Source of the DNA: an uncultured Burkholderiales bacterium
GTDB taxonomy: Bacteria > Pseudomonadota > Gammaproteobacteria > Burkholderiales > Burkholderiaceae_A
Direction: 5' to 3'
Length of the DNA stretch: 61,114 bases
Assembly: GCA_937864175.1 (NCBI GenBank)
Contig: CALMJH010000074.1
Span: forward strand, 1-61,114
The position numbers and the translations under genes are program-made. Positions 54,058 to 61,114 of this stretch are shown here, piece by piece. Each line of letters begins with the position of its first letter. The first letter of the stretch is position 1. The notes under the pieces were generated by a model. That model saw nothing but the letters and a program-made list of their open reading frames with translations, was not told the origin of the DNA and did no database searches.

Positions 54058-55644
54058 CTAGGGTCGGGCGTTGGCCTTGGCCTCCTGGAGTTGACGACGA
54101 AGACCGGTGAGCCGGGCATCAATCTTTGAGAGCAAGACGAAATCTGCCCCGCCTGCACGGCGGGCCATTTCGAGTTGCTCGATGGCGGCCGACCAGGCGC
54201 CAGAGAGGGCGTAGAGCTCAGCACTGGCCGCATGGGCTGCCGCCACCTGTCGCAGTTCTCCATGAACCACCGCCAGCAGCCGCCAAGCCTCGCGGTCTTG
54301 GGGCCATCGACTCACCACCAGCCGAAGTTGCTGCAAGGCCTGCTCAAGGCTGCCGGTCCCAGGCCCCCGCATCCAGGCCTTGGCAGAGAGCCGCAGTCCT
54401 GCCCGCAGGGAGATGGAGCGGTCGTGCTGGTCAGCCAGCTGTTGACCCAGGGCAACCACCTTTTGGTCTGCGCCCTGGGCCCAGGCGATGGCCTGCTCCA
54501 GGTGCAGCAAGAGGGCTGTGGCCCATTGAGCCTGCCCAGCCTGCTGCGCCATTCGTCGCGCCTCTTGCAGGCTGTCCATGGCGGAGAGCGGGTCTCTGCG
54601 GGCCAGATGGGCCCATGCCATGCCGTACTGCAGGGCGGCCGCCTCGGTCGGTTTGGCCTGAACTAGCCCCTCGCGCAGGAGGCCGACTGCTCGGTTAAGG
54701 CCGTCGACCGAGGGGTCGGCCTGGGCCAGGAGTCGCGCCCGAATCCAGCCAAACTCCAGGCTGTCGGTGACCAGGGCCCCGGGCCTTGGATCGAGCAGAC
54801 CCAGTCGGCCCCGCATGTCAGCCACCCGTTCGCTGGTGAGCGGGTGCGTCCGGAGCCAGGTAGGCGCCTGTGAGGTCTCATAAAACCGGCCAGCCTGCAT
54901 GAGCTTTTCAAAGAGCCCCACCATGCCCCGCCCATCGAAGCCTGCGCCGGTCAGCAGTGAAAATCCCACCCGGTCGGCCTCTCGCTCCGCATTCTGGGAG
55001 AAGGCCAGTTGCTGACGAACGGCGACGGTCTGCCCTAGGGACAAGACGCCAGCGGCCGCATCGGGACTCTGCGAGGCGGCTGCGGCAGCCAGGACGGCCG
55101 CGGCAATCATCCAGGCCGAGGACTGCCGCTGTTCGCCAAACATCCGGGCGATGTGTCGTTGGGTGACGTGGCCAATCTCGTGGGCCACCACTGACATCAG
55201 CTCAGACTCGGTCTTGGCCGCGGTGACCAGTCCCGTGTGTATGCCAATCCAACCGCCGGGCAGTGCAAAGGCATTGATGCTGGAATCCTTGACCGGAAAG
55301 AAAAAAAACTCCTGGGCCGAGAGGGCAGCAGCACTGCTGCCGGGCCGGTCGGTGAGGGAGCCTTGGGCCACGGCAATGCGCAGCAGCCGCCAGGCCTGAG
55401 CCTGAAGATAGTCCTGGAGTTCTGGATCGTCGTGGACCGCGCCGGCTCGGACGAGTTCATGAAAGACCGCCTGGCCCAGGCGTCGCTCGGCTGCCAGCGA
55501 GAGTTCATCCACCGCCGCCTCCCCAAGGGCGGGCAGGCCTGTCTGGGCCCGGGCCACTGGAAGCAGGCCATGGCCCAAGGGGCCTAGCAGGCAGGCGGCA
55601 AGGCAAATCCTCGCTATGATGCGCAGATGAATTCTTTGACCCAT
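54058..55644 (-). CDS. M48 family metalloprotease, BepA-like
   Basis: This protein of about 528 residues has a signal peptide (1-33, ending PVARA), an M48 zinc protease domain with HEIGH (155-159) and the third ligand in NAEREAD (E220, D224), and a C-terminal region of TPR-like helices. This layout matches BepA (YfgC), a periplasmic protease and chaperone that helps assemble LptD and other outer-membrane proteins. ATG 55644 provides the signal peptide; it lies inside the divergent moaC gene, giving an 18-base head-to-head overlap. No later start keeps an intact signal peptide. Confidence 0.92.
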
Positions 55645-56115
55645 TTCAATGATCAGGGCAATGCCCACATGGTCGATGTCTCTGCCAAGTCTGACACGGA
55701 ACGTCAGGCCACTGCCACGGGACGAATTCGCATGAAGCCAGAGACCCTCGCGGTCATTTCGGCCGGTCAGGCCAAGAAGGGCGACGTCCTGGCCGTGGCC
55801 AGGATCGCGGCGATCACAGCGGCCAAAAAGACCAGTGACCTGATTCCTCTCTGCCACCCCCTGATGCTCACCAAGATCACGGTAGAGCTGGCCTGTCACC
55901 CCGAGGACCAGTCCGTCTCCTGCACCGCCACAGTCGGACTGACCGGCAAGACGGGTGTGGAGATGGAGGCGCTCACCGCTGTGAGCGTCGGGCTTCTAAC
56001 GGTCTACGACATGGTGAAGGCAATCGACCGCGGCATGGTGATTGAGCGCATTCAGTTGCTTGAAAAAGCCGGAGGCCGCTCGGGCCACTGGCAGGCAAGC
56101 GAGTCACAGGCCTAG
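55627..56115 (+). CDS. moaC: Cyclic pyranopterin monophosphate synthase MoaC
   Basis: MoaC, after MoaA, converts the cyclised GTP derivative to cyclic pyranopterin monophosphate, the first intermediate of molybdenum cofactor. The 162-residue protein matches the family from its first residue: [32 protein letters not shown] and [23 protein letters not shown] 55627 is 17 bases inside the overlap with the divergent BepA-like gene. The 3' end overlaps mgtE by four bases. No other moa gene is in the window. Confidence 0.97.
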
Positions 56116-57602
56116 AAAAAGAGCGTTGCGAGGCCGAGGAAAATAAAAAATCCCATGGAGTCGGTGCTGAAAGTCAGCAGGACCGACGAGCCCATGGCAG
56201 GGTCACGACCAAAACGCTCCAGAACAAGCGGCACCAGAATTGCAATCAGGGCCGCGATCAGCAGGTTGAGCACGATGGCCAGCATCATGGTGAGGCCCAG
56301 CATGGCCCCCTGGCTGGTGTCTGAATAAAGCCACCAGGCAAAGGCGCCGGCAATCGAGCCCCAGACCAGTCCATTGAGCAATGCAATGACCAACTCCTTC
56401 TGAAAGAGTCGCTGCGCGTTGCTGGCATTCATTTGGCCCAGGGCCAGAGACCGAATAAACAGCGTCATTGTCTGGTTGCCCGAGTTGCCTGCGAGGCCCG
56501 CCACAATGGGCATTAGGGCCGCCAGGGCCACGACCTTCTCAATGGTTCCCTCGAAGGCCCCAATCACCCGAGAGGCAAAAAACGCTGTGCAGAGGTTGAG
56601 GGCCAGCCAGAGCCAACGGTTGCGGGCCGAGTCCCAGACCGAGGCAAAGAGGTCCTCTTCTTCCCGCAGACCGGCCTGGGCCAGCACATCGGAGTCGCTC
56701 TCTTCTTGAATGACATCGACGGCCTCTGAGACGGTGAGACGGCCGATGAGACGGCCGGCCTCGTCGACCACCGGGGCCGAGACCAGGTCGTAGCGTTGGA
56801 AGGCCTGGGCTGCATCAATGGCCTCGTCGAGTGGTCGAAGGGAGACCACATCACGCCGCATCACGTCGGAGACTGTGGTCTCTGGCTCGTTGATGAGGAG
56901 TTGGCCAATGGGCAGGGCCCCCAGAAGACTCTCCTTCCGATCCACCACAAAGACCTGGTCGGTGTGGTCGGGAAGCTCATCAAAGCGTCGCAGGTAACGC
57001 AAGACCACCTCAAGGGTGACGTCGTCCCGAATGGTGATCATGTCGAAATCCATCCGGGCGCCTACGCTCTGCTCGGGATAAGACATAGCAGCCCTGAGCT
57101 GCTCACGTTCCTCGACCGAGAGGCCCTGGCGGACCCGCTCGACCACATCGAGCGGAAGCTCATCGGCCAGGGCGGCCAGGTCGTCGGGGTCGAGGGTCTG
57201 GGCCATCCGCAGAAGGGCCTCGCGGCTCATCGCCTCGATCAGGGGTTCCCGAACGGCCGAGGCTAGCTCGAGCATGACTTCGCCCCTGAGGCTGTCGGGC
57301 ACCAGCGGCCAGATCAGCTCACGCTGGTGACGAGGAAGGCCTTCTAGGACATAGGCAATGTCAGCGACGTGCAGACCCTGAATTTTCGGGGCCAGGGCAG
57401 CGGTCTGCTGCTTGACCACCAGCTGCTCCACCAGACTGCGCCGACTCTCATCGCCGGCCACCTGCTCGCGAGAGACCAGATCGGACTCCACCTCAAAGCG
57501 GTGCAAGAGCTCTTGAATCTCATTGAGTGCCCGCTGGCCAGACTCGGCATCGCGCAGGATGCCCGTCGATGGTGTCTCCGGAGCAAGAGTGGTGATGGTC
57601 AT
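56112..57602 (-). CDS. mgtE: Magnesium transporter MgtE
   Basis: MgtE is a dimeric Mg2+ channel gated by internal magnesium. The 496-residue protein has the N-terminal superhelical domain (about 55-190), two CBS domains (about 195-320) and five membrane segments (from about 333) with the signature [22 protein letters not shown]. It begins three bases after the RNB-AroE gene's stop. The 3' end is embedded in the convergent moaC gene by four bases. No magnesium riboswitch can fit upstream. Confidence 0.95.
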
Positions 57603-57605
57603 GGC

Positions 57606-60485
57606 CTACTCTAACTCAGGCGACTCAGGCCGAGCGATGCCCTGACGACAGGCCTGCAGGACGCTGAGTGTCTCGGGACAGAGTCCGCGCCAGAGTTGGA
57701 AGGCTGCAGCCGCCTGCTCCACCAGCATTCCCAGACCATCGATGACACGGGGCGCGCCGGCTGCCTGGGCCGTGCGCATGAAGTCGGTGGGCTCGGGCCC
57801 ATACATCATGTCGACCACAAGCTGGGCTGCCGCCAGGAGTCGGGGGTCAACCGAGAGGGCCTGGCCTTGGAGGCTGGCGCTGCTGGCATTGATGATGAGG
57901 TCGAAGGTGTCGACCGGCAGGCCAGTGGCCTGCTCGACCTCGGGCAGGCTCACGGCTGTCCACTGCACCTGCGGAAAGGCCACGCCAAACCGGTCCACCA
58001 GCGCCTGTGCCTTGTCGAGTGTTCGATTGGCAATCACCACTGACGAGAGCCCCGCAGCCGCCAGGGGCCCCAAGACCCCGGCCGAGGCTCCACCAGCCCC
58101 CAGCAGCAAAAGCCGCAGGCCCGAGAGGTCGGTTCGCTCCAGGCTGCGCTTCACATCGGCCAGCAGGCCAAGGCCATCGGTGTTGTCACCTCGCCAACCC
58201 GTCTCGGTGCGAATCAAGGTGTTGAGGGCGCCGGCCAACTGCCCAGCCTCTGAGATGGGCCATCCACTGGACCGCGCCAGTTCGTAGGCCAGTTGTTTGT
58301 GGGGAACAGTCAGGTTGAGACCACCGTAGCCCTGCTGGTGCAGGACCCGAAGCTGTGACTCGAGTGCGTCGGGTGGGACCTGAAGGGCCTCGTAAGTCAT
58401 GGCCACCTCAAGCTGTTGGGCAAAGGCTTGGTGAATCCAGGGCGACTTGCTGTGGGCAATAGGGTCCCCCAGGACTGCGTAGCGGTCTAGCTTGGCGGTC
58501 TGAATGACGCGAACCAGCCGGCCCTGGAGCGCAATCTCCAGCGGATCGAAACCCGTGACCGCGACTTCGAGCTCCGTCCCCGGCGGCAGGCTGGACAGGG
58601 GCAGGCGCAAAATGGCGGGAGCCTCCCGAAGCCTTACGACGGACTCCGTCCGCGTGGCCACGGCCAGCATGGTGTTGGACTCATCGGCCGCAGGCCGTTG
58701 CCAGGCCTCTTGGTCCAGGCCTAGCCGCTGCCCAAACCAGCGTCCAGTCCAATAACGCTCCAGGCTGGATTGAAACTCGGCGTAGCGGTCGTAGACCCCA
58801 TCGAAATGGGCGACATCCGCATAGAGGCCCGAATCCCCTGACTTAAAGACCGGTCGGCCATGTCCCAAAAGCCCCAGCAGCTGCCACTGGTTGACCAGGT
58901 CTGCATACCGACGCAGAGGCGACGTGGACCAGGCGTAATGCGAGACGCCAAGGCCCTGATGAGGCCCGGGCTGCGTCTGCATTCGGACTTTGCCCATGGA
59001 CTGGCAACGGTAGACACCGGGTAGCTGGCCAAGGGCCAGCGTCTCTCCCCAGGTGACATTGGTGAGGATCATGAACTCGGAGACCACCAGATCCAGCGGC
59101 GATCCTCGCTCCCGGGCTTGTAACTCCACGTCGGCCAGCCCGAGCTCTCGGGCCTCTGGATGGTCTCGCCACTGCAGGCGGATACCCCAGTCCAATCTCG
59201 CCGCCGGCTCGGGACGGCCACGGGCCTGCTCCCGACGAGCCCGACAGGCCAGAGCCAGTTCGTGCAGGATGGTCAGGGCCGGCCAGGGAAGTCTGGCCCT
59301 GGCCTCTTGCCGCTCGGAGTCCGACGCGGAGGCGTCAACGGCCCATGCGAAGTCGGCTTCCCAGTCCCCATGTCGAAGGTTGCGAGCAATCTCCACCATC
59401 TCGGGCCGCGTGAACTGCTGACGCCGCTCACCCTGTGCATCGAAATCAACATAGAGCGAGACCGCCGGGCGCCAGCCCGCCTCGTCCAGGGAAGCCATAG
59501 CAATGAGCTCCGCCGGCAACATGGTGATTTTCTCGCCGGGGTAGTAGACCGTTGAGGCACGGTCGCGTGCCTGCTGGGCCATGGGCGTGCCGTGGCCGAT
59601 CAGGGCGCCGGGGGCCGCGATGTGAATGCCGACGCGCCAGCCCCCCTCGGGTAGTGGTTCGCAGGAGAAGGCATCGTCCACTTCGGTCGTGGACTCGTCA
59701 TCAATCGAGTAGGCCGGTTGGCTGGCCCGGGGCCAGGCGGCGGAGAGGGCTGTCAGGGTCTGGGCATAAGCCTGCCGGTCTTCATCGGACAGGCTCTGCT
59801 CGGCACCGGATGGAAAGCACTCGGCCATGAATCTGGCCCGGTGTAGCGCATAGGCGGACCCCACTGCACCGAGGCGCATCAGCAAGGCGGCCGGACTGGT
59901 CTGCTGTGCATGGGCTGCGGCGGCTACGGCCTTGTAGGCCACCGACTGCTTGTCTGGCTTGATGAGAAGCTGCATGGCCTGGCCAGCGATCTCTGGCGGC
60001 AGACTGCCCCCAAGAAGTTCGGAGGTCCAGGCGGCCTCCTGTTCGGCCAGTTGGGCTCGCCGAGCCGCCCCTGCCAGTGCCGCCTGAAGGGCCTCTGGGG
60101 GAGCGGGCCTAAACTGGCCCTTGCCCTTTCGGTAGAAGTACATCGGCGCCTGCTGCAGGGCCAGGGCAAGCCCAATGAGCTGCTCGGCCTGAGGCTTGCT
60201 GCCAAAGACCTCCGCGCCAAACGTCTCGAGGTGAAGGACCTCCTCTTGTGGCGCGCACTGCCAGAGGAAGTCGGGGTCAAGCTCTTCGCTCAGGGCCTGG
60301 GCCCTCTGCAGCAACGCCTCGACAGCTGCCTCGTCTTGGGCGGCAAACCGAACCAAGACCTGATTGGCCTTGACCTTCAGGCGCCGACCAGTGGTCAGGC
60401 TGACCTGGTCTGCGCCCGATGCGCTGCTCAAGACCAGCCCAGCCTTCAGCCCGCCAGACTCCTCGAAAAAAACCCCGCCTGACAC
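57606..60485 (-). CDS. Fused RNB-domain exoribonuclease and shikimate dehydrogenase (AroE)
   Basis: One 959-codon frame without interruption encodes two unrelated enzymes. Residues 1-660 are an RNase II-type 3'-5' exoribonuclease. The catalytic motif is YSIDDESTTEVDDAFS (D262, D270, D271), with Glu268 where E. coli RNase II has Asp207; later motifs are STVYYPGEKITMLP, TSPLRRYADLVNQ and a short S1-like end. Residues 667-959 are a full AroE: YAVLGDPIAHSKSP, NLTVPHK (catalytic K730), GALNT (N755), GDNTDG (D770), GAGGASAG (796-803) and the NADPH signature NRT (820-822). AroE reduces 3-dehydroshikimate in the shikimate pathway. At the junction the usual aroE start Met is replaced by CTA (58490-58488), a Leu codon, and no other start codon is nearby, so AroE can only be made as part of the fusion. 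Start codon GTG 60485; it is three bases after mpl. Confidence 0.92.
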   Translation of the reverse strand: MSGGVFFEESGGLKAGLVLSSASGADQVSLTTGRRLKVKANQVLVRFAAQDEAAVEALLQRAQALSEELDPDFLWQCAPQEEVLHLETFGAEVFGSKPQAEQLIGLALALQQAPMYFYRKGKGQFRPAPPEALQAALAGAARRAQLAEQEAAWTSELLGGSLPPEIAGQAMQLLIKPDKQSVAYKAVAAAAHAQQTSPAALLMRLGAVGSAYALHRARFMAECFPSGAEQSLSDEDRQAYAQTLTALSAAWPRASQPAYSIDDESTTEVDDAFSCEPLPEGGWRVGIHIAAPGALIGHGTPMAQQARDRASTVYYPGEKITMLPAELIAMASLDEAGWRPAVSLYVDFDAQGERRQQFTRPEMVEIARNLRHGDWEADFAWAVDASASDSERQEARARLPWPALTILHELALACRARREQARGRPEPAARLDWGIRLQWRDHPEARELGLADVELQARERGSPLDLVVSEFMILTNVTWGETLALGQLPGVYRCQSMGKVRMQTQPGPHQGLGVSHYAWSTSPLRRYADLVNQWQLLGLLGHGRPVFKSGDSGLYADVAHFDGVYDRYAEFQSSLERYWTGRWFGQRLGLDQEAWQRPAADESNTMLAVATRTESVVRLREAPAILRLPLSSLPPGTELEVAVTGFDPLEIALQGRLVRVIQTAKLDRYAVLGDPIAHSKSPWIHQAFAQQLEVAMTYEALQVPPDALESQLRVLHQQGYGGLNLTVPHKQLAYELARSSGWPISEAGQLAGALNTLIRTETGWRGDNTDGLGLLADVKRSLERTDLSGLRLLLLGAGGASAGVLGPLAAAGLSSVVIANRTLDKAQALVDRFGVAFPQVQWTAVSLPEVEQATGLPVDTFDLIINASSASLQGQALSVDPRLLAAAQLVVDMMYGPEPTDFMRTAQAAGAPRVIDGLGMLVEQAAAAFQLWRGLCPETLSVLQACRQGIARPESPELE

Positions 60486-60488
60486 GCC

Positions 60489-61114
60489 CTACTGCTCCGC
60501 CAGGCGCGCCAAGAGGCGCTCATGGAGGCCGCCAAATCCACCGTTGCTCATCACCAGCACCTGATCACCGGGCCGAGCGGCCGCGCCAATGGCCTCGATG
60601 AGCGCTGGAAGCTCCGCTGAGACTTGGGCCTTTACGCCCAGCGGTGCCAGAGTTTCGTCAAGTGGCCAGTCGAGGCCCCCGGCGTAGCCAAAGACCAAGT
60701 CCGCCTCTGCGAGGGCAGAGGGCAGCTGACCACGCATGACCCCCATCTTCATGGTGTTCGAGCGCGGCTCGATGACCGCCAGAATGCGCTGCCCAGGTTC
60801 CAGCTGACGGGCCAGACCGGCCACGGTGGTCTGGATGGCGGTGGGGTGGTGGGCGAAGTCGTCCCAGACCGTAATGCCCTTGACCTGGCCACGCCGCTGC
60901 ATGCGACGCTTCACACCGGAGAAGGTCTCAAGACTGGCAAGGGCCTGCTTTGCAGAGACGCCCAATGCCATGGCGGCGCCCATAGCGGCCAGAGCGTTGG
61001 ACCGATTGTGTGCACCCCAGAGCGGACTGGCGACCTCACCCTGAAGGGTTGACCCCTGGTAGACGGCAAAGGACTCGCGGCCAGCAGTTGCGGGACCGGT
61101 AGTTGCGGGACCGG
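60489..61114 (-). CDS. mpl: UDP-N-acetylmuramate:L-alanyl-gamma-D-glutamyl-meso-diaminopimelate ligase, C-terminal part
   Basis: The gene enters from the right edge; about 208 C-terminal residues are visible. Mpl re-attaches the recycled tripeptide to UDP-MurNAc. The stretches SPLWGAHNRSNALAAMGAA, WDDFAHHPTAI, EPRSNTMKMGVM and VMSNGGFGG match Mpl better than MurC. The visible start region contains a short tandem repeat (GPATTGPATAG) next to the window edge. With anmK it indicates peptidoglycan recycling. The stop lies three bases before the RNB-AroE start. Confidence 0.94.
   Translation of the reverse strand, partial: GPATTGPATAGRESFAVYQGSTLQGEVASPLWGAHNRSNALAAMGAAMALGVSAKQALASLETFSGVKRRMQRRGQVKGITVWDDFAHHPTAIQTTVAGLARQLEPGQRILAVIEPRSNTMKMGVMRGQLPSALAEADLVFGYAGGLDWPLDETLAPLGVKAQVSAELPALIEAIGAAARPGDQVLVMSNGGFGGLHERLLARLAEQ
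61086..61114 (-). repeat. Two copies of a 15-base tandem repeat at the window edge
   Basis: AGTTGCGGGACCGGT is repeated back to back at 61086-61100 and 61101-61114 (second copy cut by the edge). In mpl it encodes GPATTGPATAG, an insertion just before the C-terminal domain. More copies may lie outside the window. Confidence 0.75.

Follow-up and report, generated by a model that had tools for sequence, protein, structure and literature searches.

Shikimate dehydrogenase (AroE) is found on the same chain as another enzyme in the AROM polypeptide, the bifunctional DHQ dehydratase/SDH and the Clostridium chorismate mutase/SDH (5swv, 2gpt, 3fbt), and in these proteins the partner belongs to the shikimate pathway or acts on chorismate. 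In the protein described here AroE likewise shares its chain, whereas its partner is an enzyme of RNA decay, a ribonuclease of the RNB family related to E. coli RNase II (2id0) and to the D. radiodurans protein 2r7d. The fusion lies in a 61,114-nucleotide stretch of DNA (the window) that comes from a small aquatic Burkholderiales bacterium, most of whose relatives encode the two enzymes separately. The reading in the initial annotation of a single 959-codon frame joining RNB and AroE was confirmed: the frame is free of stops, and both domains are recognized by Pfam models, AroE also by NCBIfam (Table 1). In the literature searched, no titles or opening lines of abstracts describe an RNB-AroE fusion.

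Table 1. The RNB-AroE fusion and its neighbors, in nucleotide positions of the window (g1, the genus of the window; g2, its sister genus).
Feature	Position	Strand	Remarks
RNB-AroE fusion gene	57606..60485	-	959 aa; GTG start at 60485; open junction in 18/18 g1 and g2 genomes
RNB catalytic region	58863..59723	-	about residues 255-541, end approximate; Pfam RNB, alignment to 2id0 and 2r7d
Motif SIDDESTTEVDD	59711-59673	-	residues 259-271 of the RNB region; Glu268 at 59684-59682
SPLRRY motif	RNB catalytic region, within 58863..59723	-	alignment to 2id0/2r7d
Beta-rich, putatively S1-like region, end of RNB part	58500..58688	-	about residues 600-662; strands in the AlphaFold2 model
Junction	58476..58499	-	about residues 663-670; CTA at 58490-58488; ATG, GTG and TTG absent nearby
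AroE part	57606..58490	-	residues 666-959; NF001310, 4omu, 3pgj_A fold match
AroE catalytic codons	58298-58296 (K730), 58223-58221 (N755), 58178-58176 (D770)	-	
mgtE, next downstream gene	56112..57602	-	Pfam MgtE, MgtE_N, CBS; three bases past the fusion stop
Mur ligase C-terminal part (mpl-like), next upstream gene	60489..60983	-	Pfam Mur_ligase_C; frame runs on to the contig end

The AroE part is complete, as the initial annotation held. Pfam places Shikimate_dh_N at residues 671-757, Shikimate_DH at 786-870 and SDH_C at 917-935; the shikimate dehydrogenase model NF001310 scores 297.7 bits (cut-off 221) over residues 666-950, spanning positions 2-276 of its 279, and TIGR00507 scores 222 bits (cut-off 200.2). 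This part of the AlphaFold2 model superimposes on the AroE structure 3pgj_A with a TM of 0.93 by target length. The catalytic residues K730, N755 and D770 that had been singled out are invariant across 17 aligned fused proteins, as are the columns G796-A797-G798-G799-A800, N820 and R821; the catalytic Lys and Asp presumably correspond to K65 and D102 of E. coli AroE. The part covers the entire domain and resembles free-standing AroE (NF001310; 4omu, 3o8q, 1nyt) in its fold and its conserved catalytic residues; it differs in lacking a separate start codon and in sitting C-terminal to a ribonuclease. The loss of that start codon, also previously proposed, is borne out: the CTA codon at the junction aligns with residue 1 (Met) of the Pseudomonas AroE 4omu (E 3.1e-57), and no in-frame ATG, GTG or TTG occurs in the 45 codons preceding the AroE landmark G-x-P-I-x-H-S in the window's genome. 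A second AroE was not found in the source genome, where the other weak matches were read by eye as other proteins (a short-chain-dehydrogenase-like and a glutamyl-tRNA-reductase-like protein) and rejected. The genome also has aroA, aroB, aroC and aroK. As judged from its sequence, the fusion carries the only shikimate dehydrogenase detected in the cell.

The ribonuclease part fits its first description, a full RNase II-type enzyme, less well. Pfam RNB (PF00773) matches in two stretches with 151.6 bits against a gathering threshold of 29.3, the best being residues 255-495. The RNase II and RNase R models NF003455, TIGR00358, TIGR02062 and TIGR02063 reach only 80.7-91.2 bits against cut-offs of 368.6-641.9 (NF003455, 91.2 against 542; TIGR02062, 83.1 against 641.9; TIGR02063, 80.7 against 597.85), and by these curated models the part is a member of the RNB family that is neither RNase II nor RNase R. 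It shares with 2id0 and 2r7d an SPxRRY-like motif and the motifs that surround the catalytic Asp residues, and differs from both in the sub-cut-off scores, the C-terminal AroE and a Glu at the position of Asp207. Aligned to RNase II, whose catalytic acidic residues we take to be D201, D207, D209 and D210, it keeps three of the four Asp and SPLRRY, with Glu268 at the Asp207 position of 2id0. Because a Glu stands there in 164 of 166 RNB frames, fused or not (duplicate loci included; the other two were unmatched by the motif pattern), the exchange characterizes the whole subfamily. With Glu in place of one catalytic Asp of RNase II, the ribonuclease activity of the fusion is not certain. The nearest solved relative by sequence, 2r7d, matches the AlphaFold2 model with a TM of 0.75 by target length. 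That model was built from 17 sequences and has a pTM of 0.59, with residues 493-524 below pLDDT 50, and its domain packing is not firm. Its strands suggest that the region at the end of the RNB part is S1-like; Pfam S1 gave no match in the fusion protein at E 0.01.

The window derives from a draft genome of 1.63 Mb in 88 contigs (93.6% complete), and in such an assembly an error might join two genes into one frame. We regard this as vanishingly improbable here, since the frame is open over the junction in all 18 genomes of two genera covered by the search of the family, 11/11 of g1 and 7/7 of g2, among them an isolate, and also in eight genomes of two other lineages; neither a frameshift nor a stop interrupts the junction in the 18 assembled genomes. 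The recurrence of the same open frame in 18/18 g1 and g2 genomes excludes chance or sequencing error as its source and rules out an assembly artefact. Three of the 18 genomes are partial (G010, G017, G004): in G010 a contig end cuts inside AroE, and the frame is visible only up to the AroE start, and G017 lacks the N-terminus near a contig end. In G004 the N-terminus of the fusion (G004:C6:375269-375643) lies in a different frame, through a frameshift or a sequencing error. The isolate is LSUCC0115 (G002), of the MWH-UniPo clade of Burkholderiales, whose genome of 1,835,506 bp is 98.78% complete, with 105x coverage and 95.49% coding density (PMC6952679); it provides a cultured organism that carries the fusion. 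In the alignment of 17 proteins, the 16 fused relatives are 48-70% identical to the protein of the window. Eight pairs were compared for dN/dS, and in six of them the value for one part or both was saturated or could not be calculated; the two with unsaturated dS gave 0.048 and 0.088 in the RNB part and 0.053 and 0.154 in the AroE part.

The order RNB then Shikimate_dh, sought across Burkholderiales, recurs outside the g1 and g2 genomes (clade A) in two lineages, clade B and clade C. Clade B came to light through G197 (family f4), which in an order sample of 399 genomes was the only full-length match outside the window's family among the matches listed. In its genus, g103, six of seven sampled genomes are fused (G197, G457, G484, G506, G525 and G542, the last seen over the junction only), and G313 has two genes. 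Clade C comprises L058 (Betaproteobacteria bacterium WB5_2B_315), which surfaced in a scan of named loci, and its 98% identical relative G553; another relative, G552, has an AroE fragment only, and in the more distant relatives that were translated (L167-L174, L176-L178, L180) no single frame holds both parts. L058 and its relatives appear to belong to family f10. Trees of RNB (51 rows) and AroE (48 rows), built with 11 of the 18 clade A and five of the six clade B genomes, each need three changes of state. A single origin was rejected: constraining the RNB tree to unite its 17 fused rows lowers the log-likelihood by 155 (p-AU 1.1e-10), in a test where the group is defined by the trait and clade C is one row per tree. 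Branch supports, given as SH-aLRT only, are 81-94 for clade A, 100 for clade B, and 96 (RNB tree) and 89 (AroE tree) for the clade C row within the f10 group. The placement of g3, a third genus of the window's family, is unsure because its rows evolve fast and form a long branch in trees rooted at the midpoint. These data suggest that the same fusion arose at least three times among the sampled genomes, and further fused lineages may exist. Outside Burkholderiales, no fusion was seen among the matches listed for a class sample of 229 genomes, 226 of them outside the order. Several seeming fusions were discarded when translation showed no frame with both parts (G043, G089, G370, G160, G294, G236, G388; G413, G461, G445, G367, G431, G515; G530, G572, G567, G580, G586, G554; and G256, whose stretch stops at a contig end).

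The separate genes of other Burkholderiales are the same two, in the same order and on the same strand as in the fusion, and differ from it in occupying distinct frames and in what lies between them. The initial annotation was right in deriving the fusion from neighboring genes; it took RNB and aroE to be often neighbors in betaproteobacteria, and they are not usually direct neighbors. In 61 of the 80 best named loci, out of 589 found, they are separated by a TonB-like gene (the query, from L023, is TonB_2 by Pfam); the rest are adjacent (6), fused (7) or without AroE downstream in the stretch examined (6). This frequency indicates that the intervening gene was probably lost before the fusion. 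Elsewhere the stop and start of RNB and aroE overlap as ATGA, in G313, G515, Caballeronia L067 and Burkholderia guangdongensis L114. In G043 (L133) and G089 (L127) of family f19 the two lie in the same frame with one TAA between them, a single stop away from fusion; the open frame of G043 was listed as 997 aa, yet a stop is present within it.

Close relatives with two genes and identical flanks did not turn up. The nearest two-gene relatives are two of the eight g3 genomes (G025, G024), which belong to another genus, at 32% identity, and keep RNB and aroE unfused beside the same neighbors, in G025 as RNB-TAATAA-AroE. A homologue of the upstream Mur ligase gene, presumably mpl, stands upstream of RNB or aroE in relatives too. 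No RNB orthologue was found in the other six g3 genomes, where single absences are weak evidence since these genomes are 70-87% complete: G014, G018, G012, G016 and G022 have AroE alone, plus RNase R-like matches in some, and G020 has an RNase R-like match only. In 4/4 further g3 stretches (G014, G018, G012, G022), the mpl-like gene is immediately followed by aroE and RNB is missing between the two, an order read at loci L135, L136, L137 and L138; this is positive evidence of RNB absence there, and these small genomes can apparently do without the ribonuclease.

Living relatives thus hold likely intermediates: a gene between the two, then adjacency or overlap, then a fusion with an inner start, and lastly a fusion without a start near AroE. 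A path along these states would begin with loss of the TonB-like gene, after which RNB and aroE would have abutted or overlapped; the ribonuclease stop would then have been lost in frame, leaving an AroE start inside the fused frame that may have stayed usable for a time, as the g2 sequences suggest, until it was lost in the window's genome.

At the boundary with AroE, all seven g2 frames still have an ATG or TTG in frame, and its anti-SD energy is -8.3 to -12.1 kcal/mol, a strength that only 27 of 1279 other in-frame starts in 26 fused frames attain (-8.3 kcal/mol). A boundary site as strong as those of g2 is kept in 0/11 g1 genomes. Middling sites occur near the boundary in G008 (GTG, -6.8), LSUCC0115 (ATG, -6.3) and G009 (GTG, -5.6), a strong site (-10.6) precedes a GTG of G007 further upstream than the boundary, and in the window's genome and G001 a start codon is absent from the stretch scanned around it. 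Clades B and C have no inner site stronger than -5.6 kcal/mol. Among 14 unfused AroE ATGs, ten lie at -5.6 or lower and four have no site (0.3 kcal/mol or weaker), so that initiation inside the frame may occur even where the ribosome site is weak, and the sites in G007, G008, LSUCC0115 and G009 mean that g1 genomes other than the window's may have inner starts. Judged by these sites, g2 probably makes both the fusion and free AroE. In the window's organism, whose inner start is gone, the fusion is probably the only form in which AroE is made. The 1:1 ratio of the two enzymes that the initial annotation considered forced accordingly fits the window's genome and probably not g2, given inner starts in 7/7 frames.

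The spacing of the parts bears on what the cell makes and on why the genes fused. Measured by eye from the last RNB strand to the first AroE strand, the linker has about 8 residues in the window's protein and about 17 in that of g2 (G011). In clade B its length ranges from 17 to 49 residues, and in clade C from about 32 to 36. An acidic composition marks most of the linkers in these two clades, much as it does the tails at the C-terminus of many RNB proteins that are not fused. Such long, acidic linkers, together with the strong ribosome site and start in g2 and the four of 14 unfused AroE genes that do without a site, could mean that the frame is fused in the DNA while the cell makes two proteins, through linker cutting or inner initiation. 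We think this improbable for the window's organism, whose linker is only about 8 residues and whose junction has no ATG, GTG or TTG nearby. A selected functional link, whereby the ribonuclease responds to the state of AroE (shikimate, NADPH) or AroE is brought close to ribosomes by the RNA-bound part, is also unlikely, if by a shade less so. That one pair of genes fused three times might reflect selection on the link as such, and to that extent counts against compaction; the fusion is kept in 18/18 g1 and g2 genomes, beside a g3 in which an RNB orthologue was not found in 6/8 genomes (70-87% complete), and several unfused relatives overlap the two genes by ATGA. Against this, linker length and composition differ between and within clades, a pTM of 0.59 lends no support to a fixed interface, and the strong inner start of g2 should yield free AroE as well. 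We also know of no biochemical link between RNA decay and aromatic synthesis, and evidence for a metabolic connection was not found. A specific form of this idea, that AroE senses its cofactor or substrate and so sets the activity or place of the ribonuclease, would explain both the fusions (at least three) and the retention of RNB, and would join RNA decay to aromatic synthesis; we hold it to be a long shot.

Two independent enzymes on one polypeptide, brought together by compaction of a conserved gene neighborhood, is to our minds the very probable account, in keeping with the cause first thought likeliest. Tethering by operon compaction is favored over a link between RNA decay and the shikimate pathway because linkers range from about 8 to 49 residues and the ribonuclease is missing from several relatives. 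We infer from sequence how the steps were ordered, that the cell produces the protein and keeps it intact, that each part is an active enzyme, and that tethering and shared dosage, not chemistry, link the two. Enzymes of unrelated pathways would thus have fused repeatedly, with candidate steps surviving in living relatives, a case that cautions against taking every gene fusion as proof of shared function.

Two smaller observations were made along the way. In other gammaproteobacterial families (G732, G833, G812, G756, G647), AroE matches fall in open frames of 646-701 aa, which may be further AroE fusions or no more than long open frames. Within the window, at 55627-55899, a MoaC gene (+) overlaps the 5' end of an M48 peptidase frame (-) when the latter is taken from its first GTG, and the peptidase start probably lies further inside its frame.
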